Source of the DNA: a virus | Length of the DNA stretch: 47,285 nucleotides | Reading direction: 5' to 3' (one strand) | Virus record (IMG/VR): IMGVR_UViG_3300002053_000036 | Location: 1-47,285 of that record | Part shown: piece after piece, positions 2,593 to 46,024 of the stretch | Layout of the letters: each line of letters begins with the position of its first letter | How positions within the stretch are numbered: the stretch's first letter is position 1 | Position numbers and translations under genes: made by a program | The notes under the pieces: generated by a model | Seen by the model: only the letters and a program-made list of their open reading frames with translations | What the model was told of the DNA's origin: nothing | Databases searched by the model: none

Positions 2593-3037
2593 ATTTTTTG
2601 TTAGAGAAATAGAGCTTCAATTGGAAAAAGATTTTAATATAGAATTAATTAATCCATTTTTTGATTCAAAAAGAAAAGATATTGAACAACTTAATAATGA
2701 AAATATAAAATTAGCTGTTAGATTAAAATATAGTGATAAGGATGCTACAAAAATAGTTAAAGGTGATTTAAGTTTAATAGATAAGAGTGATGGTATTATA
2801 TCAATCATAGTTGATTCAGAATCAATTGGTTCTTATATGGAAATATTTTATTGTGGATTTGTTTTACATAAACCTGTATATATTATAGCACCAAATATTA
2901 AAATAAGAAAACATTTATGGATTAGATGTTGTTCAACTAAACAATTTGCTTCAGTTAATTCATTTAAAAAATGGCTAAAGAAAAAAGGATATTCAAATAA
3001 TACAATAAATAAAACAACATTCGGGGTTAGAATATGA
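2555..3037 (+). CDS. Nucleoside 2-deoxyribosyltransferase-like protein
   Basis: A 160-residue Rossmann-like protein. It begins M-K-K-F-Y-L-A-H-Q-F, like the first strand of the nucleoside deoxyribosyltransferase family. The later part has V-K-G-D-L-S-L-I-D-K-S-D-G-I-I-S-I followed by S-I-G-S-Y-M-E-I-F-Y and K-P-V-Y-I-I, matching the family's D...sDg, S.GT..E and gKPV blocks. Family members swap or hydrolyse bases of deoxynucleosides or nucleotides. In viruses they can serve nucleotide salvage, base modification or signal degradation. The glutamate in Y-M-E-I is the likely catalytic residue. Start ATG 2555 with AGGTGG upstream. The stop overlaps the next ATG. Confidence 0.75.
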   Translation: MKKFYLAHQFKYRFFVREIELQLEKDFNIELINPFFDSKRKDIEQLNNENIKLAVRLKYSDKDATKIVKGDLSLIDKSDGIISIIVDSESIGSYMEIFYCGFVLHKPVYIIAPNIKIRKHLWIRCCSTKQFASVNSFKKWLKKKGYSNNTINKTTFGVRI

Positions 3038-3435
3038 AAGTGTTAATGCCACCAAAACATTTATGTAAAAAAATGCATAAACTATTGAATACTTTTTATG
3101 AGAATGAAAAAAATAATAAAAGAGCATTAAGTATTGATAATTATAAAATGTATAGGGAAGCTTTTACGATATTCTGTAATTGGTATGAGCTTGAAGTACC
3201 AGTAACTAATTTCAAAAAGAAAATTGATAAGACAAAATCATTAGGTGAATGCACAGAATCAGGAAAAATTATTTTATTATATCCATATGTATTTAATAAA
3301 AGAAAACAAAAAGAAAAACTATCATGTACTTATTTAGGACTTGTATTCCACGAATGGGGACATTATTATTTATGGGCTGACGCTGAAACAAAAGCTTTAG
3401 AATTTGAATTAAGAATGATAAAAAGAGGAAAATAA
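3034..3435 (+). CDS. Zincin-like protein with HEWGH motif
   Basis: A 133-residue protein with a clear zinc-peptidase motif H-E-W-G-H at 106-110, preceded by a hydrophobic strand/helix (Y-L-G-L-V-F). A downstream acidic residue in A-D-A-E-T-K-A-L-E could be the third ligand. It is too short for a known secreted peptidase and has no signal peptide. It resembles the core of SprT/WLM-type intracellular zincins, but the exact family is not recognised. It overlaps the previous gene by ATGA and lies one base before the next. Confidence 0.65.
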   Translation: MKVLMPPKHLCKKMHKLLNTFYENEKNNKRALSIDNYKMYREAFTIFCNWYELEVPVTNFKKKIDKTKSLGECTESGKIILLYPYVFNKRKQKEKLSCTYLGLVFHEWGHYYLWADAETKALEFELRMIKRGK

Positions 3436-3436
3436 A

Positions 3437-3703
3437 ATGCCATATATAAAAGAATGGGAAAGAGAATTATTTGATGCAATATTAAAAGCAATCGACCCTG
3501 ACATACAGTTAAATGCAGGTAGATTAAATTATTTGATAACAAAAATTATTGATAAATATTTAGGTAAAAATCCACATTATTCTGATTATAATGAAGTTAT
3601 CGGTGTACTTGAATGTGTAAAACTTGAGTTATATCGTAGACAAGTTGCTAAATATGAAGATAAAAAATGGACAGAAAATGGTGATGTTTATGGGAAGAAT
3701 TAA
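3437..3703 (+). CDS. Conserved phage protein, DUF6899-like
   Basis: An 88-residue protein that begins M-P-Y-I and contains G-R-L-N-Y-L-I-T-K-I-I near 28-37, then G-V-L-E-C-V-K-L-E-L-Y-R-R (about 60-72) and ends with K-Y-E-D-K-K ... E-N-G-D-V-Y-G. This is a widespread small protein of tailed phages, which I recall as DUF6899. Its function is unknown. Its presence inside this operon ties the metabolic and surface genes to the virus rather than to a host chromosome. Confidence 0.8.
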   Translation: MPYIKEWERELFDAILKAIDPDIQLNAGRLNYLITKIIDKYLGKNPHYSDYNEVIGVLECVKLELYRRQVAKYEDKKWTENGDVYGKN

Positions 3704-4463
3704 AAAAGAAATTGATTATATTTCAGATAAGGATTATTCAGATATTTTAAAAAGACTTTATAAAATAGCCAATAAATTACATATACCAATGTGGTTGAGT
3801 TTCGGAACATTACTTGGTTATGCACAACAGCATAAACGATTTGAATGGGATAATGATATAGATATAGGAACAACAACTAAAGGATTTGATAAATTATTAC
3901 AAAATCTGGATTTAATAAAACAAGAGGGGTTTTTCATAAGAGATAAAGTATTGAAACCTAAGTGTTATAGAGGTTTATTTATTTATGATAAAAAAATACA
4001 ACCATTTCATGTAGATATTAGTGAATTTATTATAGATAAACATAATAGATATACATTTAGATGGTTAATAAGAGTTAATATCCCATCAAAATGTTTTGAT
4101 TATTTATATAAAGTATTTCTAACCATATTAGAATTTACAAATAAGAATAAAAAAATTCCATTTTTTGATTCCAAACAATATTCTAACTATAAAAAAAATA
4201 AAATCACTGGAACAATTGCTGATATGTTATATAAAATAGATTTATTTTTTACAACAACTAGAGAGCTTAAAATGAAAGTTGATACATTTAAAAAAGTAAA
4301 ATATTATGGAATAACTGTTTTAGTTCCTTTTCCAATTGATTCATATTGTGAAGTTAATTATGGAAAAAACTGGAGAAATCCTATTAAGAAAAGAAAAACG
4401 CTTGGTGGCTCTGAATGCTTAAAAGAAAAAATTGATGGAATAGAAAGGTGTTATCTTGAATAA
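3690..4463 (+). CDS. LicD/fukutin-family phosphotransferase
   Basis: A 257-residue protein. The N-terminal block W-L-S-F-G-T-L-L-G-Y (about 34-43) and the metal-binding W-D-N-D-I-D-I-G (about 52-59) are hallmarks of LicD/fukutin nucleotidyltransferase-fold enzymes, and the C-terminus has V-P-F-P ... Y-G-K-N-W-R-N-P as in LicD. These enzymes transfer phosphocholine or ribitol/glycerol phosphate from a CDP donor to a glycan. I place the start at ATG 3690 (GGTGAT five bases upstream). A longer reading from 3624 would overlap the previous gene more. Immediate coupling to a cytidylyltransferase suggests that gene makes its CDP donor. Confidence 0.85.
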   Translation: MGRIKKEIDYISDKDYSDILKRLYKIANKLHIPMWLSFGTLLGYAQQHKRFEWDNDIDIGTTTKGFDKLLQNLDLIKQEGFFIRDKVLKPKCYRGLFIYDKKIQPFHVDISEFIIDKHNRYTFRWLIRVNIPSKCFDYLYKVFLTILEFTNKNKKIPFFDSKQYSNYKKNKITGTIADMLYKIDLFFTTTRELKMKVDTFKKVKYYGITVLVPFPIDSYCEVNYGKNWRNPIKKRKTLGGSECLKEKIDGIERCYLE

Positions 4464-5025
4464 ATTTAGCTGTATAATATTAGCAGGTGGTAAAGGTGAA
4501 CGATTCGGTGGAAAAAAACAAAATGTATATTGGAAAGGTAAACCACTTTGGAAACATGTTTATGATACATGCACCGATGTTAGTGATGATGTACTTATAA
4601 TGGGCTATTCAAAACATGGTAGACAGGGTGCTGTTTATAATGGATTAAAAAAAGTAAAATATGATACTGTTGTTATTGTTGAAGCAGCAAGACCACTCGT
4701 AACAGCTAGACAAATACAACTTTTAGCCATGATAGTATCTGAAAGTTTACCATCAGTATCATATGCTAAAAAATGTACTAATACAATTGTTTGGAAAGGT
4801 ACGCATATTGATAGAAAAAATTGTTATGAGTTATTAGTGCCACAAGCATTTAGGACAAAATTATTATTAAAAGCTCATAAACAATTAAAAGGACTTAATC
4901 GAACATCAGATACAGAAATGATGTATGAAATATTTGGTATTGAACCATATTTATTCATAATCAATGGAAGTAATTTATTTAAAATAACTTATAAAGGAGA
5001 TTTAAAATATTTGGATGTGATATAA
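4456..5025 (+). CDS. IspD-like cytidylyltransferase, probable CDP-polyol synthase
   Basis: A 189-residue protein starting at a TTG (4456) with AGGTG six bases upstream and inside the end of the LicD gene. The N-terminal loop I-L-A-G-G-K-G-E-R-F-G-G-K-K-Q is the nucleotide-binding signature of IspD/TarI-type cytidylyltransferases. A-A-R-P-L-V, V-P-Q-A-F-R and D-T-E-M match later family blocks. It is shorter than typical IspD (about 230). Paired here with a LicD transferase and a dehydrogenase, it most resembles the split halves of Bcs1/TarIJ-type CDP-ribitol synthesis. Methylerythritol phosphate as substrate is less likely in this setting. Confidence 0.8.
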   Translation: MNKFSCIILAGGKGERFGGKKQNVYWKGKPLWKHVYDTCTDVSDDVLIMGYSKHGRQGAVYNGLKKVKYDTVVIVEAARPLVTARQIQLLAMIVSESLPSVSYAKKCTNTIVWKGTHIDRKNCYELLVPQAFRTKLLLKAHKQLKGLNRTSDTEMMYEIFGIEPYLFIINGSNLFKITYKGDLKYLDVI

Positions 5026-5861
5026 TGAAAAGAAAACCAATAACCGTAATTATTCCAACATGGAATAGTATGCCAGAATTAGAACAAACTTTAAAATCAC
5101 TTGGTCCTGCATTTGGTAAATCATTAAAAGAAGTAATAATTGTTGATAAACTTTCTACGGATGATACAATAGAAATAGCTTATAAATACGGGTGTACCAT
5201 ATTTTGGGATGATGGAACATTAGGTCATGCTAGATTGTTAGGGTTAAAACATGCAAGAACAAAATGGGTGGCATGGATTGATAGTGATATTGAATTACCT
5301 AAAGATTGGTATAAAGAAATTTGTAAATCGGTCAATGATAAAACTGGATGGGTGTATGGACAAACAAAAGAAGATATACCATTTGTTGAAGCAGACCATG
5401 AATATAAGCGACAATTAAGAAATAATTTACCACGACAATTAAAAAAAGGTGAATTTGAAAGAGCTTATACAAATAACACAATTACTTTAAGAGAACCATT
5501 ACTTAATGCACCAATAGACAATCTTAATGCATGGGAAGATTATGTAATGTGCCAATGGATGATTAAAAAAGGTTATGATGTTATAGAAATCGCACTTCCA
5601 TGTAAACATCTTAAGCATGGTGTTTACAAAAAATTTGGGTTATATACAGAATCATGGGGAATAGCAGGTGAATTAAAAGCAAAGGGATGGAATCCTAGAA
5701 CATTGATGCGACCTTTTTATTTTGTTTATTGGGGAATACGATGTACCACTCATTTTAAAAATTTTGAATATACTCGATATTACACTAAAGTTTGTTTAGG
5801 CATGTTGAAAGCAATATTCAAAACAAGAAAAGAATGTTTTAATTGGAATCGTGATATATGA
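5025..5861 (+). CDS. Family 2 glycosyltransferase
   Basis: A 278-residue GT-A fold enzyme. It begins with I-T-V-I-I-P-T-W-N-S, then V-I-I-V-D-K-L-S-T-D-D-T (UDP-sugar-binding region, about 37-48) and the metal-binding W-I-D-S-D-I (about 83-88). The C-terminal part is aromatic and basic, with no clear membrane helix, so it probably acts in the cytoplasm or at the membrane face. It starts in a TAATG overlap and ends in an ATGA overlap, within the surface-glycan cassette. Donor and acceptor sugars cannot be deduced. Confidence 0.88.
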   Translation: MKRKPITVIIPTWNSMPELEQTLKSLGPAFGKSLKEVIIVDKLSTDDTIEIAYKYGCTIFWDDGTLGHARLLGLKHARTKWVAWIDSDIELPKDWYKEICKSVNDKTGWVYGQTKEDIPFVEADHEYKRQLRNNLPRQLKKGEFERAYTNNTITLREPLLNAPIDNLNAWEDYVMCQWMIKKGYDVIEIALPCKHLKHGVYKKFGLYTESWGIAGELKAKGWNPRTLMRPFYFVYWGIRCTTHFKNFEYTRYYTKVCLGMLKAIFKTRKECFNWNRDI

Positions 5862-6442
5862 TGGGTGAATTGTATCTACATATTGGTACTATAAAAACTG
5901 GCACGAAATTTTTACAAAAAAAGGTTTTTCCAAAATTAGAAGGGATAAGATTTTACTGGAAACCTAGTTTATCTTATGCTTTAACATTTAAATATATTTA
6001 TCCTAATGATAAGATACTCATAAGTGATGAAAGATTATCTGGTTGGTGCGAAACAAAATTACCAGTATCGTGGAGATATGAAACATTAAAAATATTGAAA
6101 ACAATTTTTCCAGATGCTAAAATAATAATTACATTAAGAACGGATGAAGAAGAATTTATTGAATCTAATTATGCACAAATGTGTGTTGAAAAAGAAGGTG
6201 CATTACATAAATTCGATGGAACATATGAAGAATTTTTAGCTGCATATGATAAAAATTGGAACAATCACATAATGATTATTAAAGAAATAAAATCATTATG
6301 GAATGATTGTTTAATATTATATTATTCTGAATTAGTTAAAGATGCTGATGCTTATGTTAAAAAAATTTGTGATTATATGGGTGTTAAAAAACCAAAATTT
6401 GATAATGTTAGATTAAATTCAAGGGAGAGTAGAAAAAAATGA
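5858..6442 (+). CDS. PAPS-dependent sulfotransferase-like protein
   Basis: A 194-residue protein. The N-terminal L-H-I-G-T-I-K-T-G-T-K-F-L-Q (about 6-19) is the 5'-phosphosulfate-binding loop, and I-I-I-T-L-R-T-D-E-E-E-F-I-E-S-N-Y (about 90-106) matches the 3'-phosphate-binding segment with its arginine and serine. It is short for the family (usually over 250), so the acceptor-binding part is reduced. It probably sulfates a glycan, given the glycosyltransferase upstream and dehydrogenase downstream, both overlapped by ATGA. The start could be either of two adjacent ATGs at 5858 and 5861. Confidence 0.8.
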   Translation: MMGELYLHIGTIKTGTKFLQKKVFPKLEGIRFYWKPSLSYALTFKYIYPNDKILISDERLSGWCETKLPVSWRYETLKILKTIFPDAKIIITLRTDEEEFIESNYAQMCVEKEGALHKFDGTYEEFLAAYDKNWNNHIMIIKEIKSLWNDCLILYYSELVKDADAYVKKICDYMGVKKPKFDNVRLNSRESRKK

Positions 6443-7065
6443 AAAAAATTGTAATAACAGGTGGAAGTGGGGATATTGCACAAGCTGTTAGACAATTATT
6501 AGAAAAAGAATTTATTGTTTATACACCAAGTAAGGAAGAATTAGATATCACATCCACATTTGAAATAAAAAAATATATGGAAAAAATTAAGCCAAATATC
6601 TTAATTAACAATGCAGGGTACATATACAGAGAACCTATTATTAAATTAAATGTATTAGAGCTTAAAAGACATATTAATATTAATTTAATTGGTGCAGCCA
6701 TGTGTTCAAAATATGCAATACTTAATGGTGCAGATACAATAATTAACATCGGCTCAACAGCAGGTTGTGATGGTAAAGCTGATTGGTCGGCTTATTGTAT
6801 CTCAAAAGCAGGATTAATCATGTTATCGGATTGTTTAGCTAAAGAAAATATTAAAGCTATTACATTATCAATTGGTAGAACCAATACTAAAATGAGAAAA
6901 AAATTATTTCCAAATGAGGATGAATCAACATTATTAAAACCAGAGGACATCGCTAATTTAATAAAAAAATTACTATTATCAACTGCTTATGATTCTTTTT
7001 GGGATTCCCATAATGGTAAAAATATAATATATAGAAAAGGTGAAGAAATATGTATAGAAGGTTAA
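6439..7065 (+). CDS. Short-chain dehydrogenase/reductase
   Basis: A 208-residue Rossmann oxidoreductase. The coenzyme loop is V-I-T-G-G-S-G-D-I-A (a variant of TGxxxGIG, about 5-14), followed by I-N-N-A-G (about 55-59), the serine block I-G-S-T-A-G, and the catalytic Y-C-I-S-K (YxxxK). The acidic D-I-T after strand 3 is conserved. All catalytic residues are present. In Bcs1/TarJ-type pathways a reductase makes the polyol phosphate that a cytidylyltransferase then activates. This gene may play that part here, although the substrate is inferred only from neighbours. Confidence 0.87.
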   Translation: MKKIVITGGSGDIAQAVRQLLEKEFIVYTPSKEELDITSTFEIKKYMEKIKPNILINNAGYIYREPIIKLNVLELKRHININLIGAAMCSKYAILNGADTIINIGSTAGCDGKADWSAYCISKAGLIMLSDCLAKENIKAITLSIGRTNTKMRKKLFPNEDESTLLKPEDIANLIKKLLLSTAYDSFWDSHNGKNIIYRKGEEICIEG

Positions 7066-16768: not shown

Positions 16769-18682
16769 TTATTCTATATTATCATACCATTGTACATATA
16801 ATTCCATATTCTTATGATAAACAACCTGTTTACCATATTTTTCTATAAAAACTCTTCCTGTTTTTAAGAAGTATATAGAATAATCTGTACCAAGTATTCT
16901 ACATTTGTTTCCTCTAATTAAATAATTTAATTCTTCACTAATTTCTTTTCCGAAATTAATGCTATCTATATTATCCATTTTTTGCCAATATATATTTACA
17001 TCAATCATAACTTCATGTTTTCTAACTGTTGCACCAACATTATGTTCTTCCATAGTTTCGAGTAATAATCCTAATTCTATAAATGGTAAAGCTGGTAATG
17101 GACTTAATCCAGCTTTTGTTTCTTCAGTTAAATATATTGGTATATTATGATTTATTCTATGTTCATCTGCTATTGTTATTGTATAAATTTTATCGTTACT
17201 TATATATCGTTCAGTGCCTAAATATTCTCTAATTGTTTCTCTTGGGTCTAATGAATAATAAGCAGCTTCTCCTGATATTAATGATAATGATATTGTATCT
17301 GATATAAAAACAATATCTTGTAATTCCTGTAATCTACATAGTAATAAATCAATATCGTCATTTAATGTTATAATATCTGCTGGGTATAAATATAAAGTTG
17401 TACCAGCGCTAATTAAATTTAAATCTAAATCCTCACTAATCAATATCGTATCTGTTAATTCTTTATACATTTCTTTTACTAATGCATCACCTAATATAAC
17501 ATTTTCAGCTAATGTTTTATTTATATTTTTATTTAATGAATCATCTAATTCTATATTATCAATTATTTTTTTATCTATTTCTTTTATTAATGTATCATCT
17601 AATAAAATCATATCAGATAATGTTTTACCAACATTTTTATATAATACATCATTTAATAATATTGAATCATTTAATATTTTTCCTATGTTTTTATTTATTT
17701 CTTCATTTAATATTATGCCATCATTTAATGATTTATCAATATCTTTTTTAAATGTTTCTGATAATAATATATTTTCTTGAGGATTTATATGATAACTCAC
17801 AACTCTACTTAATACATCACTTACAGTAACATCATCATATAAACTTTTTAATTTAAATATTTGTGTTTGTAGGTTATCATTTAGTGATACCAAATCACTT
17901 AATATTTTATCAAATTCTTTTTCTAATTCATCAACTATTTCAACATTTTCTTGAAATGCTCTATTATAGTTTACAATTCTACTTAATACATCATTCAATG
18001 TTACAACATCGTTTAATGATTTACCAATATCTTTTTTAAATATATCATTCAATAAAATATTATCATTTAATTTTTTACCAACTTCTTTTTCTATATTATC
18101 ATCTAAATTAACACTATCATCTAAATATTTTCCAACTTCCTTTTTGAGTGAATCTGAAACAGCTTCTAAATCTGTTGGATATTCATAATATGTTTCTGCT
18201 GATGCATAAGTTACTCTAACATATAATTGTGTGCAAAAAATATCTCTATTTTGACTTCTTGTAAATGTTGCACCTGCTACTAAATTATCTATATCGGTCC
18301 AATCCCAATCACCACCAGCAGGGTTGGTTGCCCAATCATAATAAACATCAGCATATGATGTTGTAACAGTTTGAGCAGGGCTATCATACTGACTACCATC
18401 TGTATAAACATGCAATACAATATAATCACCATCACCAGTTTCACGATAAACTCTTGCAACAACTCTAACATTTGTTATTGAACCAGTTTCAGTTGTGTGG
18501 TTAGATAAGTTATATAAATCTTTATAATCACCATTAGTGTCAGCCCAAATATAGGTAGAATCTTCATCTGGACTATCCCAAGCATCATCAACTTTATCCC
18601 AATGCGTTGTCGGACTTGTCGGATATACATATTGCATAGCAACGGAATTATCGCTAGTTGGATAAATATATAACTCACTCAT
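16769..18682 (-). CDS. Repeat-rich appendage protein with tail-terminator-like end
   Basis: A 637-residue mosaic. Residues 1-165 are one copy of the adhesin beta-sandwich (W-D-W-T-D-I-D-N-L signature). Residues about 175-465 hold about 15 copies of an 18-20 residue unit of the form K-x-I-G-K-x-L-N-D-x-I-x-L-N-D. Residues about 470-637 are a mixed domain with P-F-I-E-L-G-L, V-N-I-Y-W-Q-K-M-D-N and Y-G-K-Q-V-V-Y-H that is shared with the beta-propeller protein upstream. Placed between the neck adaptor and tube gene, the shared end resembles a tail terminator in position and size. The repeat array suggests an extended stalk. Confidence 0.6.
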   Translation of the reverse strand: MSELYIYPTSDNSVAMQYVYPTSPTTHWDKVDDAWDSPDEDSTYIWADTNGDYKDLYNLSNHTTETGSITNVRVVARVYRETGDGDYIVLHVYTDGSQYDSPAQTVTTSYADVYYDWATNPAGGDWDWTDIDNLVAGATFTRSQNRDIFCTQLYVRVTYASAETYYEYPTDLEAVSDSLKKEVGKYLDDSVNLDDNIEKEVGKKLNDNILLNDIFKKDIGKSLNDVVTLNDVLSRIVNYNRAFQENVEIVDELEKEFDKILSDLVSLNDNLQTQIFKLKSLYDDVTVSDVLSRVVSYHINPQENILLSETFKKDIDKSLNDGIILNEEINKNIGKILNDSILLNDVLYKNVGKTLSDMILLDDTLIKEIDKKIIDNIELDDSLNKNINKTLAENVILGDALVKEMYKELTDTILISEDLDLNLISAGTTLYLYPADIITLNDDIDLLLCRLQELQDIVFISDTISLSLISGEAAYYSLDPRETIREYLGTERYISNDKIYTITIADEHRINHNIPIYLTEETKAGLSPLPALPFIELGLLLETMEEHNVGATVRKHEVMIDVNIYWQKMDNIDSINFGKEISEELNYLIRGNKCRILGTDYSIYFLKTGRVFIEKYGKQVVYHKNMELYVQWYDNIE

Positions 18683-29101: not shown

Positions 29102-29761
29102 CTATATGCTTCTTGTCGTATCTCTAACATATTCAGATAACATTTTATGTAATTTTTCTAATATCGTGCAATCTTTTTTATTATGGTCAAGAACATACTC
29201 AAGAGCTTCTCTATCGCCAACTTTAGCTCTCATCCAAAAATTACCTTTAATATGATTCTTACCTTTAATACCAACTAATGCACAAGCAGAATCAAGAGAA
29301 TTTTTATGTATTTTTAATTTATTTCTAACCATGTAATAAACATCTTTATGCTGAACAGAACCGAATCCCAAGAATTTTATTTTATGCGATAAAGCTCTAG
29401 CTCTTATAAATGGTATATCATATTTTGTTCCATAATAAGTTATGATTATATCATACTCACTTAATGCTTCGATTAATTCTTTTACTATTCTCCTATCGAA
29501 ATCATAAGAAAGAATTTCACTTTGGTCTATGACACCAAATCTATATTCATCTTTATCTTTAGTTTTAATACACCATGTGAGCATATAATCCCAATTAGCA
29601 TTAAGACCACCTGCTTCAATATCGAAATAACCGATTTTTAATTCTTTATTTTTTTCTCGTTCATAACACTTTGGATGTTGAATATAAGGCATCCTATGTT
29701 TCTTACAATATGTACTCGCCATTTTCAATAATTCTTTTTTAGTATAACCACTCAAATTCAT
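29102..29761 (-). CDS. DnaQ-like 3'-5' exonuclease (RNase H fold)
   Basis: A 219-residue nuclease. The first motif is G-Y-F-D-I-E-A-G-G-L (about 43-52, DxE), the second is T-Y-Y-G-T-K-Y-D-I-P-F (about 109-119), and the C-terminal D-H-N-K-K-D-C-T-I-L-E holds the last aspartates. This matches the RNase_H_2/PolB-exonuclease-like group (YprB-like). No polymerase domain follows, so it is a free exonuclease, perhaps for recombination, repair or degradation of host DNA. An AGGTGAT site precedes the ATG. Confidence 0.8.
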   Translation of the reverse strand: MNLSGYTKKELLKMASTYCKKHRMPYIQHPKCYEREKNKELKIGYFDIEAGGLNANWDYMLTWCIKTKDKDEYRFGVIDQSEILSYDFDRRIVKELIEALSEYDIIITYYGTKYDIPFIRARALSHKIKFLGFGSVQHKDVYYMVRNKLKIHKNSLDSACALVGIKGKNHIKGNFWMRAKVGDREALEYVLDHNKKDCTILEKLHKMLSEYVRDTTRSI

Positions 29762-31852: not shown

Positions 31853-32028
31853 AATATATCATCTTCCTTTTCATTTTTATATTCATTATTTAATTCCTTA
31901 ATCATATTAAGCCGACAGAATTTACATCCTTTATAAAGAACGCCCTTAAACAACCATGTCCGAAAGAATTTTATTGGTCTAAACTTACCACACATTTTAC
32001 ATCTACGGACTTTATTATTATCAGGCAT
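31849..32028 (-). CDS. Zinc-finger mini-protein, 59 aa
   Basis: A 59-residue protein. C-K-M-C-G (10-14) and C-K-F-C-R (about 35-39) flank a basic, aromatic segment, as in small phage zinc-finger proteins that resemble HNH zinc sites without the nuclease residues. It overlaps the helicase end by eight bases and the next gene by ATGA. Confidence 0.7.
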   Translation of the reverse strand: MPDNNKVRRCKMCGKFRPIKFFRTWLFKGVLYKGCKFCRLNMIKELNNEYKNEKEDDIL

Positions 32029-33676
32029 TTATTTCATATCTCCCATCAGGTCTTTTAATGATTAAATTCCTCTGCTCACACATTTCAATGAAATCATTAT
32101 CAAATCCATTATCCTTTAACTCACCAATATCACTCGGATTATTCTCAAGAAAAACCGTTAAGCTTTCAATCTTATCACCAAGAGTAATTTCTTCAGGTTG
32201 TATGTCCACAATTTTAGACGAATCCTCAATTTTTCGTTGAGAACTTGTGCCTTCATTATAAGAATAAGATTTACGATTAGGGTCTTTCCAAGAAAGATTT
32301 TTATAAGTCCAAACTCTATTACCATCTGGTAATGTCATCCTATTAGATGCAACACCATACATTGTTTGGAATAATTTACGACTAAAATGAACCTCATTAA
32401 GAGTTGGTTTCTGATGTTCAACACACCATTTATTATATTCATACAAGACCTCTGATTTATCCAACCATGAACCTATCTTAACTTCTAATGTTTCATTACA
32501 AAAACCAAGAATTGGATTAGCTCTTTCCTCATAAAGCTGCAAATTTTTATCAGTAGATTTATTATAACTAAATTTACGATTCTTTAATAAACGCTTCAAA
32601 CCTTCCAATGCCCAATTAAGAATACCAGAAAGCTCTTCCTCAACTATCATTTTATCAAGAATATGCTCATCTGTTCTTGGGTCGCCCACTGGAAAATAAC
32701 TATTAAACTCAATAAAAGTAAGACGAGTAGCAAATGCAACAGTTTTATCCTTTGGAAAATCAGGTGGATTATTGCAACCCCAAATAAGTTTAGCATGATT
32801 AGTAAAATTAATAAAATCATGGTGAATCCTTCTAGCAGCAATACTATCATTACCTGTAAGAAGTTTTATTACACTTGTATCATTAATTACATCAGAACCA
32901 ATATCACCAGAAACATTAGCAAGTTTACCAAACAGTTTAGCAATAGAAAACTGGCTGGTGGTAAGCTCATGTAAAGTCATGTTTTCAACAGAATCAGAAC
33001 CAACGAATTTACGAATAAGATTAAGTAATGTGGTTTTACCATTACGACCAGAGCCGATAAGCAAAAAGAAATTAGGGTACTCATGTGTTTTATACAAAAT
33101 ATATCCAAACATTTCTTGTATGACTTTAACATCATCACCAGAAAGAATTTCATTAATATACTTATCAAAAACAGGACACTCGGCTTTAGGATTAAAAACA
33201 AGATTCATCTGCTCAAAAAGTGGAAGGTCCTTACTATGAGGAATCATCGTACCATTTTTAACATTAAGAACACCATTCTTTAAACTAATAAAATACTTAT
33301 ATTTTTCCTCAACTTCCTCAACTTTTACCATCAAACTCATAAAATGCTTAACGGCTGTAACTACCTCTGTAACCCTCTGATTAGTAGCTTTAGTGTCCAT
33401 AATAAGCCGAGCAACAGTTTCAATCACACGATGCCCATCAGGTCTATAACAACCATTATCATAAATATAAATATCCCGTTTATCATTATTAAGAACGATA
33501 AAACCACGATTAATACCAGTGCCAGTGGTGGGGTCAAATTTATCAAAAACTATATCACCAGCGAGATTATTAGCGACAAGATGCTTCTTATTAAAATAGA
33601 TATTTTTAGTATCTTTAACAGCTTTAAGAATATCACTAACTATTTTCGGGTTCACCGTTCTTTTTTCTTTTGCCAT
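32021..33676 (-). CDS. SF3/D5-type replicative helicase (P4 primase family)
   Basis: A 551-residue protein. Residues about 120-200 resemble the D5_N region (I-S-L-K-N-G-V-L-N-V and Y-I-N-E-I-L-S-G-D-D). The helicase core has Walker A G-S-G-R-N-G-K-T-T-L (208-217), Walker B-like L-A-N-V-S-G-D-I-G and the sensor L-I-W-G-C-N-N-P-P (motif C). A winged-helix-like C-terminus follows (about 410-480). No primase domain is fused; that activity is at 45152-46024. It is the probable initiator/helicase acting at the repeat cluster near 35.2 kb. Confidence 0.9.
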   Translation of the reverse strand: MAKEKRTVNPKIVSDILKAVKDTKNIYFNKKHLVANNLAGDIVFDKFDPTTGTGINRGFIVLNNDKRDIYIYDNGCYRPDGHRVIETVARLIMDTKATNQRVTEVVTAVKHFMSLMVKVEEVEEKYKYFISLKNGVLNVKNGTMIPHSKDLPLFEQMNLVFNPKAECPVFDKYINEILSGDDVKVIQEMFGYILYKTHEYPNFFLLIGSGRNGKTTLLNLIRKFVGSDSVENMTLHELTTSQFSIAKLFGKLANVSGDIGSDVINDTSVIKLLTGNDSIAARRIHHDFINFTNHAKLIWGCNNPPDFPKDKTVAFATRLTFIEFNSYFPVGDPRTDEHILDKMIVEEELSGILNWALEGLKRLLKNRKFSYNKSTDKNLQLYEERANPILGFCNETLEVKIGSWLDKSEVLYEYNKWCVEHQKPTLNEVHFSRKLFQTMYGVASNRMTLPDGNRVWTYKNLSWKDPNRKSYSYNEGTSSQRKIEDSSKIVDIQPEEITLGDKIESLTVFLENNPSDIGELKDNGFDNDFIEMCEQRNLIIKRPDGRYEINA

Positions 33677-33871: not shown

Positions 33872-34150
33872 TTAAAGCACCCCAAATAATTTAAAGATAG
33901 CTAAAGATATGAGAAAAGATGCACTAATCGTAAATATCCATTTAATAACATCCTCAATCAACCGTTTCCTTTTCATCGAAGCTTCATAATCCCACTCATC
34001 CTCATCGTTATCCAAAGAATTATCAGCTAACGGGAAACCCTCTATTTTCCAAACAGCATCATCCAAATCGAGCATACAATCATGGCAAAGAATATATCTG
34101 TATTTACCACCCTTACCCTCTTTTTTACCACATCTCGGACATTCAATCAT
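33872..34150 (-). CDS. Zinc ribbon with membrane anchor
   Basis: A 92-residue protein. C-P-R-C-G-K (4-9) and C-H-D-C (about 22-25) form a zinc ribbon. An acidic linker follows (S-L-D-N-D-E-D-E-W-D), and a C-terminal membrane helix (about 68-89). It may anchor a nucleic-acid or protein complex at the membrane. No family is recognised. Confidence 0.65.
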   Translation of the reverse strand: MIECPRCGKKEGKGGKYRYILCHDCMLDLDDAVWKIEGFPLADNSLDNDEDEWDYEASMKRKRLIEDVIKWIFTISASFLISLAIFKLFGVL

Positions 34151-34151
34151 T

Positions 34152-34244
34152 TTATTTCACCAACGAAAGAAAAATAAAAGTACCAAAAATGATAATTACC
34201 AAAATAGTAATTGCAATAACATCATTATTAAGTTTTAACTTCAT
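34152..34244 (-). CDS. Single-helix membrane peptide, 30 aa
   Basis: A 30-residue peptide with a short charged start and one membrane helix (about 9-27, isoleucine-, valine- and phenylalanine-rich). GGATGG lies just upstream. It falls between two accepted genes with small spacing. The function is unknown; the short length keeps confidence modest. Confidence 0.5.
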   Translation of the reverse strand: MKLKLNNDVIAITILVIIIFGTFIFLSLVK

Positions 34245-34262
34245 TATTCATACCATCCTTCA

Positions 34263-34619
34263 TTAATATGGAAAATTATCATATGAAAAATCAAAAGTTT
34301 TCTGTGTTTTAACATTAAGAATAATACAATCGAAAAGATGATACCAAACTACCTGATTTGGGTCAAAACCCTTACGGGGATGAATACTATTCCAAACATT
34401 AATAAATTCTGCTTCGGAAACACAACCTTCAGATTCATAAAGAAACTTTGCAATAAACCATAAAGGAAGCTTAACAACTAAATCAATTTTAAAAGTATTA
34501 CCATCAACTTTGAAAGTATCACCGACATTACCATACTTTTTAGTTCTCGAAGTTGCACATTTAAGAGCAAGATTCAGCTTACCAATAGACCAAGCATTAA
34601 AAGGTATTTTAACTTCCAT
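34263..34619 (-). CDS. ASCH-domain (PUA-like) protein
   Basis: A 118-residue protein. A-L-K-C-A-T-S-R-T-K-K-Y-G (about 18-30), G-D-T-F, the central strands F-K-I-D-L-V-V-K-L, and E-A-E-F-I-N-V-W-N-S-I-H-P-R-K-G-F (about 78-94) match phage ASCH-domain proteins, which are PUA-like folds thought to bind RNA or modified nucleotides. ATG 34619 is used rather than an upstream GTG. It follows the promoter at 34.95 kb as the third gene of the operon. Confidence 0.75.
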   Translation of the reverse strand: MEVKIPFNAWSIGKLNLALKCATSRTKKYGNVGDTFKVDGNTFKIDLVVKLPLWFIAKFLYESEGCVSEAEFINVWNSIHPRKGFDPNQVVWYHLFDCIILNVKTQKTFDFSYDNFPY

Positions 34620-34627
34620 TTTTATTA

Positions 34628-34792
34628 TCACTCTCTCATTATTAAAACATGCTTATCAATAACCTTAATCGATGTCCAAACACAACCATTAACATCAGCA
34701 GAAACCAAAAGAAAACTATCACAATGAGGAAGTACCATAACGAAAAGGATAAACTCATCATCAAATGATACAAAATCTTTAACTTCGGTCAA
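34628..34792 (-). CDS. Hypothetical protein, 54 aa, TTG start
   Basis: A 54-residue beta-rich protein. I start it at TTG 34792, with GGTGAG five bases upstream, inside the end of the zinc-finger gene. A longer ORF to 34849 would only overlap that gene. Its strands F-I-L-F-V-M-V and F-L-L-V-S-A-D-V resemble the 54-residue protein at 33689 in general form, but homology is not certain. Confidence 0.5.
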   Translation of the reverse strand: MTEVKDFVSFDDEFILFVMVLPHCDSFLLVSADVNGCVWTSIKVIDKHVLIMRE

Positions 34793-34928
34793 TTTTCTCA
34801 CCACAGAACGGACAGTCAGAATCCATCCAAATAATATAATCATTACCAAAATATTTCTTCATCTTATGACAACAGAATTTAATAACAGCTTTCTTATCAT
34901 AACAAACAGTTTCATCAGTTATTCTCAT
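34779..34928 (-). CDS. Zinc-finger mini-protein, first gene of operon
   Basis: A 49-residue protein starting 14 bases behind the promoter element at 34942-34954. It has F-C-C-H-K-M (about 18-23) and C-P-F-C-G (about 39-43), a probable CC-H/CxxC zinc site. A short leader and no strong ribosome site suggest near-leaderless translation. It is absent from simple long-ORF lists because of its length. It may be a regulator at the head of the replication operon. Confidence 0.7.
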   Translation of the reverse strand: MRITDETVCYDKKAVIKFCCHKMKKYFGNDYIIWMDSDCPFCGEKIDRS

Positions 34929-34968: not shown

Positions 34969-35090
34969 ACATGACTTCGGAGAACAAACATTCACAAGGA
35001 CATGATAAAGACACCATCGGGACATAAAAATAGAATCATATATAAAACATTCCATAATATTGTAATAATCAAAAATAAGGAGAAAACAAA

Positions 35091-35394
35091 AAGAAAAGAG
35101 CAAAAAATGAAAGAAAAGAGCAATTTTACACTACGGACCAGAAAAATGGGTACTCGGAAAGTTACTATGGCAGCGATTTTTCTCCCGTTAAACCTATATT
35201 CCTGCCATAGTAACCACACTAATTTTATTATATTATATAAAAACACTATTTTTAATCTAGCTTCTATATAGAAATTTACTATGGTTACTATGGTTTTAAC
35301 AGAAGGGCAAGTAACTTTCTCAAACCATAGTAACTTACTATGGATTTTGTACAAAAACAAAGAAAAGAGCAGTTGCTCATAAAGAAAAGAGCAA
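35091..35394. repeat. Iteron cluster, candidate replication origin
   Basis: Six copies of TTACTATGG lie within 182 bases: forward at 35162, 35276, 35285 and 35335, reverse at 35205 and 35325. One pair forms a 13-bp perfect inverted repeat (35161-35173 with 35202-35214). Another forms CCATAGTAA-C-TTACTATGG (35325-35343). Four copies of AAGAAAAGAGCA flank the cluster in pairs (about 35091, 35111, 35360 and 35382). There is no gene here. Helicase and AT-rich repeats lie nearby, so an origin is the best reading; an operator array is the alternative. Confidence 0.6.
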
Positions 35395-35681
35395 TAAATA
35401 CACACACTATCCCCACCGTTTATTTTTATTCTGCGAGTTTTATAATATGGGGTATATATTAACATTTAAATAATAATAATAATATATAATACAGAGTACA
35501 GCGCTTCATTTATATAAAAATCAACATATAATAATCAATATATAATACACATTAAATAATAATCGACATATAAATATAGTATTTTTATTTTTTAAAAAAT
35601 ATATAAATGGTGTTATATGTTTGAAAATAAATAAAAAATAATAAATAAATATCGGCTCTATTTTCAGAGAACATGTATTAC
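35395..35681. other. AT-rich non-coding DNA beside the iterons
   Basis: About 290 bases with no credible gene. It contains short imperfect AT repeats (ATAATAATCAATATATAATAC-like stretches) and several possible TATA boxes (for example near 35450-35475). It may be part of a DNA-unwinding region. A 14-base string ACAGAGTACAGCGC at about 35493 recurs at 41183. Confidence 0.4.
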
Positions 35682-35749
35682 TTAATAATCATTATTAGTT
35701 AATAATCATTATTAGTTAGTAATCATTATTAGTTAGTAATTATTACTAA
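35682..35749. repeat. Four tandem 17-bp palindromic repeats
   Basis: Units at 35682, 35699, 35716 and 35733 have the form TTAATAATCATTATTAG with one or a few changes. Each contains the dyad AATAATCATTATT. Such AT-rich iterons often serve as helicase-loading or unwinding sites next to an origin. Confidence 0.8.
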
Positions 35750-35945
35750 ATTGTAATGATTGTTATTTAGTACATATTTCTATTTTTCTGTGTACATGCA
35801 TTTTTATTTGACCTTTCCATATATTTATTTTAAGCTTGTTGTTTATCACATGATAGATAAATGTATAAACCTATTTTGTTTTTGTATTCTAGCTATATGT
35901 TTATTGTTTTAAATGACTATTTTCAAATATATGGATAAAAAATAT
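35750..35945. other. Non-coding AT-rich stretch
   Basis: About 200 bases between the tandem repeats and the terminator. I see no gene, no strong hairpin and no recognised promoter beyond general AT-richness. Confidence 0.4.
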
Positions 35946-35998
35946 GGTATAAGATAACAGGTGAAAAAAAAATAATGTATTGTTTGTTATCCTATACC
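35946..35998 (-). terminator. Long hairpin ending the left early operon
   Basis: GGTATAAGATAACA (35946-35959) pairs with TGTTATCCTATACC (35985-35998) with a single mismatch. The stop codon of the minus-strand gene lies in the stem, and the loop carries a run of nine T on the minus strand. It would stop early leftward transcripts before the origin region. Confidence 0.75.
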
Positions 35999-36618
35999 TT
36001 TTTGTTAGCTAGGTTGAAGTAATACTCATGCTTTGTTATTTTGTGGTTTAAGTTATTTAATTCCTTTCTGGCATAATACCATAAACATGATTGTGTATTT
36101 GACGGTTTTATTTTTAGCTTTTTACTTATTTTTCTTATTATGTATTTGATATATTTTATATCATTTTTGTTTGCATATTTGTACTTATGTTTAAGGTTAA
36201 ATATTTTTAATATCCATGTATCTATTACTACTTGGTTAAGGTCATTATTAACTAATGCTTTGTAATATGGTTTTATCTTGTTTCCATGTGGTAATTTTCC
36301 CTCTAAAATTCTTTTTATATTGTTTTTTATTGGTTTGTCAGCTATTCCATAATTTAAGATATATGGATTATTAAATTCTTTTATGGTGTTTAAAGCATTG
36401 ATTGTTAATGATTCATTAACTTCTAATGTATTCCTTTGTGATGTTACACTTAATAGACCTAGATATAGCTTGTAATTATCTGGATAATATTTTTTAGCGT
36501 TATTGTATATATCGTTATACCAGTTAAAACCTTCAAGATTACTTATTACTTTATACATAAGTTTATTTTCAAAGTTTTTATCTATTTTGTTTATTTTTTT
36601 CCATTCTTTAAAATTCAT
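35992..36618 (-). CDS. DUF7178-like phage protein
   Basis: A 208-residue basic helical protein. N-W-Y-N-D-I-Y-N-N-A-K (about 33-43), a following L-G-L-L-S-V-T-S-Q-R-N-T (about 54-65), K-I-K-P-Y-Y-K-A-L, V-V-I-D-T-W-I-L-K (about 126-134) and Q-S-C-L-W-Y-Y-A-R match a phage protein family that I recall as DUF7178 (WY..A, ALSP, N, VvDTW, Q..W). It is distantly like helix-hairpin-helix DNA glycosylases in layout. The family's function is not known to me. A GGTGA site precedes the ATG. Confidence 0.65.
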   Translation of the reverse strand: MNFKEWKKINKIDKNFENKLMYKVISNLEGFNWYNDIYNNAKKYYPDNYKLYLGLLSVTSQRNTLEVNESLTINALNTIKEFNNPYILNYGIADKPIKNNIKRILEGKLPHGNKIKPYYKALVNNDLNQVVIDTWILKIFNLKHKYKYANKNDIKYIKYIIRKISKKLKIKPSNTQSCLWYYARKELNNLNHKITKHEYYFNLANKKV

Positions 36619-37697: not shown

Positions 37698-38141
37698 TTA
37701 ATTATTTTTTAAATATTCCTTATAAGTGTTATAATTTTCATCGGCTAATAATTTATTATTTGTTAAATTATTAGTATCTAATAGTTCGAATTCCGATATT
37801 TGGTAATATTCAATTATAGCTTTTTTATATCCAAATTTTTTAATATCATCGACATATACGAAATATTTTATACCGTCTATTTTACTTTTATATTTTAAAT
37901 ATTTTTTTTCTATATTGTATGTTTTACTTATTAAATACGATATACCGTCAAATAAAGCACTGGTTGTATGATTAAATAAGTTAAATAATGCTTTGTGTAT
38001 ATGTTCATGCTCTAAAGCATCGACTGTTAATTTTATTATTTCCTGTTCGGTTAAACATTCAGAATGCGTTAAGCTTATTACTATATCGTTATGCATTGGT
38101 CGGAATCTAAAACCGTCATCGTCTATTATGTAGTTAGTCAT
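37698..38141 (-). CDS. HExxH protein (HEHIH), paralogue in the other arm
   Basis: A 147-residue protein with H-E-H-I-H at 45-49 and a further histidine eight residues later (F-N-H-T-T-S-A-L-F-D). The plus-strand protein at 40385 has H-E-Y-L-H and G-H-T-A-T-C-L-F-D at the same spacing, preceded in both by L-T-x-x-x-I-x-x-L. They are paralogous small zincin-like proteins. The long lysine-rich C-terminus is not shared. Substrate and activity are unknown. Confidence 0.7.
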   Translation of the reverse strand: MTNYIIDDDGFRFRPMHNDIVISLTHSECLTEQEIIKLTVDALEHEHIHKALFNLFNHTTSALFDGISYLISKTYNIEKKYLKYKSKIDGIKYFVYVDDIKKFGYKKAIIEYYQISEFELLDTNNLTNNKLLADENYNTYKEYLKNN

Positions 38142-38143
38142 TT

Positions 38144-38257
38144 TTAAACCTCTTTAAATTTATAGCTTATGAATTTATTCTCTTCTATTTCTGTTTCTAT
38201 AAGTTTTATTGTTTTAAATATATTGTATAATTCAATGCTTAAATTTTGGTTTTTCAT
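38144..38257 (-). CDS. Mini-protein, 37 aa
   Basis: A 37-residue amphipathic helix (L-S-I-E-L-Y-N-I-F-K-T-I-K-L-I-E-T-E-I) from ATG 38257, with AAGGTG about 15 bases upstream. It ends three bases before the HExxH gene. It has no recognised family but fits neatly into the operon. Confidence 0.5.
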   Translation of the reverse strand: MKNQNLSIELYNIFKTIKLIETEIEENKFISYKFKEV

Positions 38258-38272
38258 ATTTTTTTTCACCTT

Positions 38273-38440
38273 TTAATCAAATATGTGTATAATGTTTACC
38301 TTTCCATTTTTATCATATAGATAGATTGTTTTTTTATCTTGTGATATAACTGTTTTTTCTATATGGTTTATGGTTTTATATCTATTTCCTAAATTCCTTA
38401 TTTCTATTTTCAAATTTTTTATTGTTTTTTTTCTTTCCAT
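38273..38440 (-). CDS. First gene of the left early operon, 55 aa
   Basis: A 55-residue protein with a basic helical start (M-E-R-K-K-T-I-K-N-L-K-I-E-I-R-N) and two strands (V-I-S-Q-D-K-K-T-I-Y-L-Y-D). AAGGTG precedes the ATG and a TATA-like TATTTAAATG region lies about 40 bases further upstream. It may be a small DNA-binding regulator, but no motif proves this. Confidence 0.55.
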   Translation of the reverse strand: MERKKTIKNLKIEIRNLGNRYKTINHIEKTVISQDKKTIYLYDKNGKVNIIHIFD

Positions 38441-38807
38441 ATTTTTTTCACCTTATATATTATATATGTCAATCATACTATTTAAATGTTTTGTGATAGT
38501 ATGTCAAATTGTAAAAATGTTTATTAGTTATCTGATATAATCCAGATAGTTATTTTTATTTGGCATTAATTTAAAAATCATTTTAATGCGTTTTAATGCG
38601 TTTTAATGCTTATGGCTATATTACCATCTAAATTAAAAGTTTTTTGATTGTGATGTATTTGGTGAATTGGTTTATACTATTTTTCAATAAGCTTTAAATA
38701 TTTTAATTCAAACTAAAAAAGTTTAAATACTTTGACCTCACATAATTAAGAATAAAAGAAAAATTAATGGATTAAAATGTACTTTGTTAAAAATAGGTGT
38801 ATTAAAT
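38441..38807. promoter_or_regulatory. Divergent early promoter region
   Basis: About 370 bases without a gene. For the leftward operon a TATA-like ATTTAAATAG lies near 38480-38490. For the rightward gene, CTTTAAATA (about 38691) and GTTTAAATAC (about 38719) are TATA candidates. Three tandem copies of GTTTTAATGC (about 38582-38611) lie in the middle. TGTCAAATTGTAAAAATGT at 38502-38520 shares words with the repeats at 39199-39262. A short ATCTG/CAGAT dyad occurs near 38530. Confidence 0.65.
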
Positions 38808-39146
38808 ATGCATAAAAAAATTAAAAAGAAGTTATTAAAATTTAATAAAAAACTAGATAAAAAAATAATTAGATTAGGAAAAAAATTGATTAATATTAAT
38901 ACTAGAATAAATAAAAGAATAAAAAAGTTAAAGAAAAATAAGTATATTAAAATATTAATAAATAAAGATAAATCTAGTTATAAATGGGATATAAAATTCA
39001 ATGATAAAAATAATAATAAAAATTTAGAAATGATAATAAATAATTGTAAAAATAGTAAGCTTTATAATAAATACATTATGATACTTATTATTATTATATT
39101 TATTATTGCATTTAAAGATTTTATATTTCAATTATTTGCATATTAA
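38808..39146 (+). CDS. Lysine-rich protein with C-terminal membrane helix
   Basis: A 112-residue protein from ATG 38808 (GGTG upstream); an upstream TTG at 38784 is less likely. Residues 1-85 are extremely rich in lysine, asparagine and isoleucine and predicted helical, followed by one membrane segment (about 90-108). It could bind DNA or negatively charged surfaces from the membrane. It stands alone between two regulatory regions. Confidence 0.6.
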   Translation: MHKKIKKKLLKFNKKLDKKIIRLGKKLININTRINKRIKKLKKNKYIKILINKDKSSYKWDIKFNDKNNNKNLEMIINNCKNSKLYNKYIMILIIIIFIIAFKDFIFQLFAY

Positions 39147-39198
39147 AATTTAAATAATTAAAATAAATTGATTAAAATTAAAATACCAGAGTACGGCA

Positions 39199-39472
39199 TG
39201 TAAAAATGTCAAATTGACAGAATATCAGAATGTAAAAATGTCAAATTGACAGAATGTCAGAATGTAAAAATAGCTGGGATTAGCTCTGGCTCTGGTTAGG
39301 ACAAAATTGACCGACAAAAGCGACAAAATTGGGACAAAATTGACCGACAAAACCAAAAAATATATAAAGTATGACCGACAATATAGATATGGAGATTGTC
39401 ATTTTCATTGGGTGCGTAGACAATCATGTGATTAGATTAGCTATTTAATCACATACTCGCCCACCGACAATA
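39199..39472 (+). promoter_or_regulatory. Operator and promoter array of the right early operon
   Basis: A 32-bp tandem repeat (39199-39230, 39231-39262, partial after) contains the dyad TGTCAAATTGACA. Then a 20-bp repeat with GACAAAATTGACCGACA occurs at 39300 and 39333. ACCGACA occurs at about 39310, 39343, 39374 and 39463, around a TATA box at 39359-39369. ATGTGATTA (39426-39434) and TAATCACAT (39446-39454) form a leader hairpin just before the GGAG ribosome site at 39475. This looks like a strongly regulated early promoter. Confidence 0.7.
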
Positions 39473-39486
39473 AAGGAGATAAAAAT

Positions 39487-39717
39487 ATGGATATGAGTGA
39501 TAAAAGATTAAAAATGTCTATTCCTGAATACATGAGGGAATTGGTAGATAGGCAATCAACCGACAATTTAGACGATATAATAATGCAATCTATTATAAAT
39601 AAGCTTGGTTACAGAGGTAGAGTAACTTGTGGTTTTATTTATATAGAACCATATAATCAGCAACCAATAAGTATTAAACAATTTGCTCAAGCATTAATGA
39701 ATAGAAGGGTGATATAA
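39487..39717 (+). CDS. First gene of right early operon, 76 aa
   Basis: A 76-residue protein with AAAGGAGAT before its ATG. The N-terminal half is helical and charged (M-S-I-P-E-Y-M-R-E-L-V-D-R-Q-S), somewhat like the start of ribbon-helix-helix repressors. The second half has strands (V-T-C-G-F-I-Y-I-E-P-Y). Being the first gene behind a repeat-rich operator, it might be the autoregulator; this is only an inference. Confidence 0.6.
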   Translation: MDMSDKRLKMSIPEYMRELVDRQSTDNLDDIIMQSIINKLGYRGRVTCGFIYIEPYNQQPISIKQFAQALMNRRVI

Positions 39718-45151: not shown

Positions 45152-46024
45152 ATGATAATAATACCTAGACAATTAAGAAATAAAGATTTTAGATTCATAA
45201 AAATTCTTTCAAAGAATAAAAAACCAATTGAGAGAGATTGGCAAAATACTAATAATTATACATATGATAATGCAGAGCTTCTTAATTGGTTAAACAATAA
45301 TAACAATTATGGAATAGTGTGTGGTCGTGGAAATTTAGCCGTTGTTGATTGTGATGAACCAGAAATAGCAGAGCTTATTAGTAAAACATTACCAGAAACA
45401 TTTACAGTTAAAACTGGAAGTGGTGGTAAGCATTATTACTACATTGTTTATGATTGGGATAAAACAACAACACTAACAAAAAAGATAAAAGATAAAACAG
45501 GCAATATAAAAGAAGAAATACATTGTGGTGAAATTCGTAGTACAAATTCTCAAATTATAGCACCTAATTCAATACACCCTAATGGAAAGCGATATGTGAT
45601 ATTAAATGATTCACCCATTATTCATATACATAGAACAACATTAGAAACTATACTTTATGATTATATAGATAAACCAAAAACTAAAGTTAATGATACAAAA
45701 AAAGATTATCATAAGTATAGACCAATTGATATTAATAAAATATTAAAATTAGAATCATTAAATCAACATGGTAATGAATATCAAGGTTCACACCCTATAC
45801 ATGGTTCTACAACCAGAATGAATTTTTCTGTTAATGTAGATAAATGTATCTGGCATTGTTTCAGGCATAACACAGGTGGTGGAATAGTGACATTGATTGC
45901 CATGTTAAATGGAATCATAAGGTGTGCTGATTGTCGAGAGGGTTGTGTAACACCAACAATATTTAAAGAAGTTGTTGAATTAGCAAAAACAAAATATGGA
46001 ATAATAATAGATGAAGGTGAATAA
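45152..46024 (+). CDS. Archaeal/viral-type primase-polymerase (PrimPol)
   Basis: A 290-residue AEP-superfamily protein. Y-G-I-V-C-G-R-G-N-L-A-V-V-D-C-D (about 48-63) carries the catalytic DxD. V-K-T-G-S-G-G-K-H-Y-Y (about 84-94) has the histidine motif, and I-I-A-P-N-S-I-H-P-N-G-K-R-Y (about 130-143) the third motif. The C-terminus has G-S-H-P-I-H-G-S-T-T-R-M-N-F and W-H-C-F-R-H-N-T-G-G-G, a CHC2-like zinc site, then a second cysteine pair (C-A-D-C-R-E-G-C). It should lay down primers for replication with the SF3 helicase. Confidence 0.9.
   Translation: MIIIPRQLRNKDFRFIKILSKNKKPIERDWQNTNNYTYDNAELLNWLNNNNNYGIVCGRGNLAVVDCDEPEIAELISKTLPETFTVKTGSGGKHYYYIVYDWDKTTTLTKKIKDKTGNIKEEIHCGEIRSTNSQIIAPNSIHPNGKRYVILNDSPIIHIHRTTLETILYDYIDKPKTKVNDTKKDYHKYRPIDINKILKLESLNQHGNEYQGSHPIHGSTTRMNFSVNVDKCIWHCFRHNTGGGIVTLIAMLNGIIRCADCREGCVTPTIFKEVVELAKTKYGIIIDEGE

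Follow-up and report, generated by a model that had tools for sequence, protein, structure and literature searches.

A candidate iteron-type replication origin beside a conserved 39-bp element in an uncultivated tailed virus

Do six copies of a 9-base box, TTACTATGG, packed into 182 bases upstream of a helicase gene mark the place where a virus starts to replicate its DNA, or do they serve the control of neighbouring genes? The boxes lie in the window, the whole 47,285-base stretch analysed here (IMG/VR virus record IMGVR_UViG_3300002053_000036), which encodes a tape-measure protein, a portal protein, a large terminase, an SF3 helicase and a Prim-Pol primase and, judged by these genes, is an uncultivated tailed virus. 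An earlier note on this DNA had proposed an origin while allowing for an operator. Our preferred reading, which we consider probable, places a replication origin between about 34980 and 35770, with iterons bound by the winged helix of the SF3 helicase. The origin is supported by a conserved 39-bp element, a weak duplex, a change of GC skew within a gene block, a domain match of the helicase and box sets in related viruses.

Boxes 1, 3, 4 and 6 stand on the plus strand (35162..35170, 35276..35284, 35285..35293 and 35335..35343) and boxes 2 and 5 on the minus strand (35205..35213 and 35325..35333), all as exact matches within 35162-35343 and in both orientations, as the earlier note had described. 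Boxes 3 and 4 are arranged head-to-tail at 9-bp spacing, an arrangement also present in the relatives G008 and G010, and boxes 5 and 6 form the reported 19-base palindrome (35325-35343), with two 9-base arms and one central base. The single 13-bp perfect inverted repeat of that description proved to be two: dyad 1 at 35161..35214 (arms 35161-35173/35202-35214, 28-nt loop) and dyad 2 at 35284..35334 (arms 35284-35296/35322-35334, 25-nt loop). The region folds well as a single strand (z -5.8), as would be expected from inverted boxes. The boxes are indeed framed by AAGAAAAGAGCA pairs on the plus strand, at 35091..35122 (copies at 35091 and 35111) and 35360..35393 (copies at 35360 and 35382), and these are the only four copies in the whole record; among 58 loci compared, relatives included, only L001 and L002, which are the window itself, contain these flanks. 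One isolated further copy of TTACTATGG occurs at 9388. The six copies make up the record's largest 9-mer cluster, and in 200 second-order Markov simulations the maximum cluster was 2 (20 runs), 3 (179 runs) or 4 (one run) and never reached 6. The box cluster is well beyond chance.

Calling the region gene-free is fair: ORFs exist at 34992-35465 (-) and 35002-35271 (+) but have no tblastn match (E ≤ 1e-4) in the DNA of G001, G004, G005, G007 and G008. The helicase gene is close by (32021..33676, minus strand), and AT-rich tandem repeats adjoin the boxes at 35512..35772 in two tracts (35512-35578 and 35676-35772), both as previously stated. Three small ORFs between the boxes and the helicase gene (33872-34849) have no match in the relatives searched, and the gene on the other side of the origin region (35992-36618), which matches DUF7178 and phrog_3842, is kept in G001, G007 and G008.

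The helicase as sole query returned no confirmed viral relative, and a large-terminase query then yielded G001 (42,972 bases) together with smaller records. From there relatives were gathered stepwise, with the pattern of the 39-bp element and finally with a helicase alignment, which added G009 and G010. The alignment comprised 26 loci, of which 20 distant helicase relatives (L033-L052) were left out; 11 of these 20 were used in structure alignment. All five element-bearing relatives (G001, G007, G008, G009 and G010) encode the SF3 helicase, at 35-45% identity to that of the window, and gene order agrees with the window in the three for which it was compared (G001, G007 and G008). G008 and G009, at about 15 kb each, are fragments; the window, G001, G007 and G010 are long records. 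A further record with the helicase, G004 (L016), begins 1.8 kb before the helicase gene and was not counted among the six viruses; the 39-bp element was not found in this truncated stretch (best 23/39). The gene order of G001 is largely that of the window, circularly permuted; genes from either end of the window lie side by side in G001, which makes it probable that the window represents nearly all of a circularly permuted genome. Elsewhere in it, cargo-like genes for a PLP-dependent enzyme (PALP), LicD, a glycosyltransferase 2, a sulfotransferase and a short-chain dehydrogenase occupy 1284-7065, and tandem 54/108-bp repeats lie at 17455-18145 in a leftward ORF (16769-18682) near the tape-measure gene. 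The origin region has no DNA similarity to known phages, and an Rfam scan of the window gave no match at gathering scores.

Comparison with these relatives brought out a 39-bp element at 35423..35461 (consensus TTTTTATYYTGCGGGTTTTATAATATGGGGTATATATTA), which the earlier note did not mention and which lies outside the interval it described. The element is found upstream of the SF3 helicase gene in all five relatives. It agrees with the consensus at 38/39 positions in the window, 39/39 in G001, G007 and G008, 38/39 in G009 and 32/39 in G010, and at no more than 26/39 in other loci; the consensus was built from the window, G001, G007 and G008, so that the match of these four is by construction, which the rarity of the core is not. 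A relaxed 21-base core, TGCGNGTTTWWWAATATGGGG, matched five viral contigs, namely the five relatives, all with this helicase. The window and G001 share 26 bases, GTTTTATAATATGGGGTATATATTAA, in this noncoding DNA, and a 20-base piece of that word matched only G001, G007 and G008 among viral contigs. The length of the shared word alone is little proof: words equally long are shared at other places too, mostly within conserved genes, shared words of 23-32 bases elsewhere equal or exceed the element in G001, G007, G009 and G010, and for G010 no exact word of at least 18 bases in the element was among the five longest listed. The element was retained while the helicase diverged to the extent given above. 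That it is 39 bp long and stays fixed next to boxes that drift suggests a role beyond simple spacing, and it may be the place of first melting, the site of a second protein or a promoter.

If the boxes belong to an origin, they might be expected to recur in viruses with the same replication genes, and the earlier note had named their conservation as a check. This held in part. Exact TTACTATGG occurs in none of six records examined for it (G001 and five short terminase relatives), and members of the box family stand in the same place in G007 and G008. Boxes were counted over 700 bp to the left of the element, in window orientation, with words picked post hoc and expectations taken from the rest of each record. 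The pattern TAC[CT][AC]TGG occurs there six times in the window (0.03 expected), six times in G008 (0.10; five TACTATGG and one TACCCTGG) and six times in G007 (0.09; two TACTATGG and four TACCCTGG), and is absent from the corresponding 700 bp of G001, G009 and G010. In G010 the same place holds another word, with CCCTGCACA in seven copies and ACCCTGC in six (0.11 expected for ACC[CT][AT]GC). Repeat clusters were also sought irrespective of any chosen word, against 30 shuffles per record. By this measure the top cluster of the record falls at this place in the window (one 9-mer six times, at most 3 in shuffles), in G010 (CCCTGCACA seven times, at most 3) and in G008 (the 8-mer CCATAGTA five times, at most 4). 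The best single 8-mer of G007, at four copies, equals both the shuffle maximum (4) and other clusters in the record, and the best repeat of G001, ACCCAGCCA at three copies, likewise equals its shuffle maximum (3), with several such clusters in the record. G009 has the 9-mer GTTCTAGTA four times (at most 3 in shuffles), as part of TATA-like repeats and not of boxes; GTCCA occurs there seven times, three per orientation at 9-10-bp steps plus one, and GT[CT]CA eight times against 2.4 expected, about threefold. In our reading of these counts, the place of the boxes appears to be kept while the word drifts, clearly for the window, G008, G007 and G010 and weakly for G001 and G009; the helicase, the element and a weak duplex are kept in five of five relatives. 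Two short words were seen besides the boxes: ACAGTATAAC in five of the six origin regions (e.g. L014, 10650-11700), the window being the exception, and GTTCTCCGA in five of six, at -465 to -663, with G009 as the exception. A hairpin, GTTACTATGG...CCATAGTAAC, matched in two viral contigs was dropped, each having a single hairpin and no further boxes within about 1 kb.

Duplex stability was predicted by a nearest-neighbour scan in 100-bp windows, the two weakest places of each record being picked more than 300 bp apart. The second weakest duplex of the window, at 35508..35607, is a predicted DNA unwinding region that starts at +66 relative to the element; the weakest starts at +3563. In the relatives the weakest duplex starts at +11 (G007), +145 (G008), +11 (G009), -24 (G001) and +329 (G010), so that all six records, the two 15-kb fragments included, have their weakest or second-weakest duplex no more than about 430 bp from the element. 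Two box sets on either side of an inner stretch, with hand-chosen limits, can be drawn for the window and four relatives; in AT content this stretch ranks among the richest 5-8% in the window, G009 and G010 and is unremarkable for G007 and G008.

The earlier note had looked to a GC-skew minimum at the boxes. The plain cumulative minimum does not fall there: in the window it lies 3.0 kb to the right of the element, at 38478, in G010 at +3.76 kb and in G007 at the record end, while in G001 it is at the box region (26865). The outer minima of the window and G010 coincide with a switch of the coding strand. Genes, called greedily by the longest ORF, run mostly leftward from 8 kb left to 3-4 kb right of the element, with some rightward ORFs inside (in G001 near -2000). 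Change points were sought within these mostly leftward-coding blocks, with hand-set limits and p values from block permutation. The maximum-likelihood change point of the window is at 34979, or -463 relative to the element, and those of G001, G007 and G010 are at -463, -582 and -625 (p 0.006, 0.002, 0.014 and 0.002, in the order window, G001, G007, G010). Across the element the skew steps from -0.285 to -0.043 in the window, from -0.172 to +0.076 in G001, from -0.147 to -0.029 in G007 and from -0.172 to -0.020 in G010. We read the skew on a constant strand, which is not read depth, as a better test than the plain cumulative minimum.

The main rival site is another noncoding region rich in repeats, located where the gene strand switches (38.1-39.5 kb; 38130-39560). 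An origin could lie in this divergent-promoter region, the boxes then serving regulation or partition, and the cumulative minima of the window and G010, the weakest duplex of the window and the repeats AATGTCAAATTGACAG and ACCGACAA, to which relatives have related words, would fit such a placement. We hold it to be quite improbable: a coding-strand switch alone can give a skew minimum, the box region has the block change point at its left edge in four of four records, the cumulative minimum of G001 is itself at the box region, and the five copies of ACCGACAA are all on one strand, suggesting a transcript leader. The region perhaps holds divergent early promoters and such a leader. Its AATGTCAAATTGACAG repeats span 39198-39271, a 20-base word within this tract is common to the window and G007, and the strand-switch region of relatives carries TGACATAATGTCA-like dyads with TATA motifs.

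Polarity was also seen in an octamer, CGGAGAAC, that is enriched in G001 (18 copies, 1.3 expected) and G010 (14 copies, 1.0 expected). Reckoned on a circle, it points away from the element in 18/18 copies in G001 and 12/14 in G010; judged by position in the record, it does so in 6/7 in G007, 4/4 in G009, 2/3 in G008 and 0/1 in the window, an orientation that is mostly confounded by gene direction. In the leftward-gene stretch of 3-4 kb right of the element, all seven copies (in G001, G007, G009 and G010) point rightward, four of them inside leftward ORFs. For the relatives, though not for the window itself, the polarity of the octamer supports forks that diverge near the element. The octamer (G001, L013-L015; G010, L053-L055) could be a Chi-like, primase or segregation motif.

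The proposed initiator is the D5-like SF3 helicase, assigned by PHROG, Pfam, PDB profile and Foldseek matches. Its predicted structure (pLDDT 83.7) has the SF3 fold, with the SaPI5 primase-helicase as best PDB match. About residues 388-463 (32288..32515, minus strand) form a C-terminal winged helix of the RFX/P4 type, the proposed box-binding domain. Modelled alone from 17 sequences (residues 372-470, pLDDT 90), it superimposes on RFX1, its closest solved structure, with Z 12.8 and rmsd 1.6 over 76 residues, on RFX5 with Z 12.5 and on the phage P4 origin-binding domain (1KA8) with Z 9.3 and rmsd 2.6 over 78. RFX1 and RFX5 are the top two Foldseek matches, and the sequence profile of the domain matched RFX5 (E 5.7e-7), SaPI5 primase (1e-4) and RFX1 (9.6e-4). 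The P4 domain was seen only on structural re-alignment, being absent from the 50 Foldseek matches listed and from the sequence profile. A shared winged-helix fold does not show function. That RFX1 and the P4 origin-binding domain resemble each other and the tail of a further SF3 helicase has been published (PMC10516667). Among the other replication-related genes, the zinc-ribbon Prim-Pol primase is a separate protein (45152..46024, plus strand), matched in three of the five relatives searched, namely the long ones, and an RNase H-like/PolB-type 3'-5' exonuclease is encoded in the leftward gene block (29102..29761, minus strand).

RFX1 reads an X-box. Against an X-box consensus string, TTACTATGG agrees at 8/9 positions (0.1% of random words) and the G007 word TACCCTGGTA at 9/10 (0.04%); the words of G010, G001 and G009 agree at 6/10, 6/9 and 3/5. 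The likeness is suggestive only, because the boxes of these last three relatives do not match. Unlike the RFX proteins, the viral protein is no transcription factor. One full-site form of the X-box is printed in PMC4168999.

Set beside known replicons, the locus seems to work like the P4 and SaPI origins with different parts. With phage P4 alpha and its iteron origin (ori/crr) it shares an SF3 helicase with a P4-fold C-terminal winged helix, and short repeats; here the primase is a separate Prim-Pol about 11.5 kb away, neither fused nor of the Toprim type. To our knowledge the 39-bp element has no counterpart in the P4 system. The P4 protein binds its origin repeats through a winged helix, as described in PMC4234260. 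The best structural match of the whole helicase comes from the SaPI/PICI pri-rep-ori replicons of staphylococci and Gram-negatives. Here, however, the putative origin is 1.5 kb 5' of the helicase gene, separated from it by small ORFs, and not directly 3' of rep; the primase is neither adjacent to nor fused with the helicase; and G007 and G008 show no unusual AT-richness in the inner stretch. A SaPI/PICI replicon proper (PMC6092414) is ruled out by this layout, with the boxes 5' of the helicase and the primase apart. Prim-Pol, SF3 helicase and winged helix also meet in one replicon in the archaeal plasmid pRN1, where they are fused into a single protein and the required origin is a stem-loop of 100 nt that lacks iterons (PMC4234260). 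The iterons and the separate helicase and primase of the virus rule out a pRN1-type replicon. Among the proteins scanned, which covered part of the genes, none was assigned to Orc1/Cdc6, the family associated with archaeal chromosome origins.

The host is hinted at weakly by promoter-like motifs. A host scan of genome contigs gave a single match, at 23%. Archaeal-type BRE+TATA promoters number three in G009, one in G010 and none in the other records, against 0.0 expected; in 123 upstream regions, BRE+TATA occurs twice at -90..-31 (0.15 shuffled) and once at -30..-1 (0.0). TTTATATA as such shows no enrichment in most records; between -90 and -31, TTGACA is slightly above shuffles and TATAAT below them. 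The archaeal-type motifs are a weak hint of an archaeal host.

The question posed at the outset, origin or control, turns on how much each reading accounts for. Were the boxes operators, a viral regulator, or the helicase as repressor only, would control a leftward promoter of the helicase operon, with the origin elsewhere or nearby. The boxes do stand at the head of the leftward gene block, a TATA-like sequence lies between the box sets of the window and G008, archaeal-like TATA motifs fall among the boxes of some relatives in an operator-like arrangement, and inverted box pairs suit dimeric regulators. Such control leaves the skew change, the near-weakest duplex and an element kept over large divergence unexplained, and of the possible regulator genes nearby, the small ORFs at 33872-34849 are unmatched in the relatives searched, although that at 35992-36618 could still be one. 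On balance a purely regulatory role is unlikely. Short-repeat clusters in both orientations are also known at partition sites, and the boxes could be a centromere-like partition or a packaging site of a plasmid-like or headful-packaging virus; this is highly improbable, with no ParA or ParB named among the subset of proteins scanned and with the skew and duplex evidence again unaccounted for.

Under the origin reading, we infer that the helicase binds the boxes. Encoded 1.5 kb to the left, it would use its C-terminal winged helix to bind the TTACTATGG iterons, and the opposed boxes would place two helicase rings or a double ring. The ring would then melt the weak duplex beside the 39-bp element, the separate Prim-Pol primase would prime, and forks would depart both ways. 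At iteron plasmid origins, binding at the iterons also represses the operon. Binding to the boxes may likewise repress the leftward operon by autoregulation, in which case the operator reading would be partly true and an operator role may exist alongside the origin role.

Among the open-literature matches listed for the terms searched, none described an iteron origin in a tailed virus that is archaeal or uncultivated, and in our judgement origins of uncultivated viruses are seldom located. The six related genomes offer a defined origin core, a proposed initiator with relatives of solved structure and differing box words, which makes origin recognition by an SF3 helicase open to direct tests on short DNAs with small purified domains; two short sequence tags, the 21-base core pattern and the box family, can serve to find more members. 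A wider reading, which we regard as speculative and rather unlikely, is that these loci represent a viral origin family, perhaps of archaeal tailed viruses, in which a fixed 39-bp core of a new type stands beside fast-drifting iterons that an SF3 helicase reads through a fused RFX-like winged helix, this domain sharing with eukaryotic RFX domains both ancestry and part of its DNA specificity (TACC..GGTA half sites). If this is true, the drift of boxes and domain across the six viruses would amount to a natural experiment in the joint change of an initiator and its origin.
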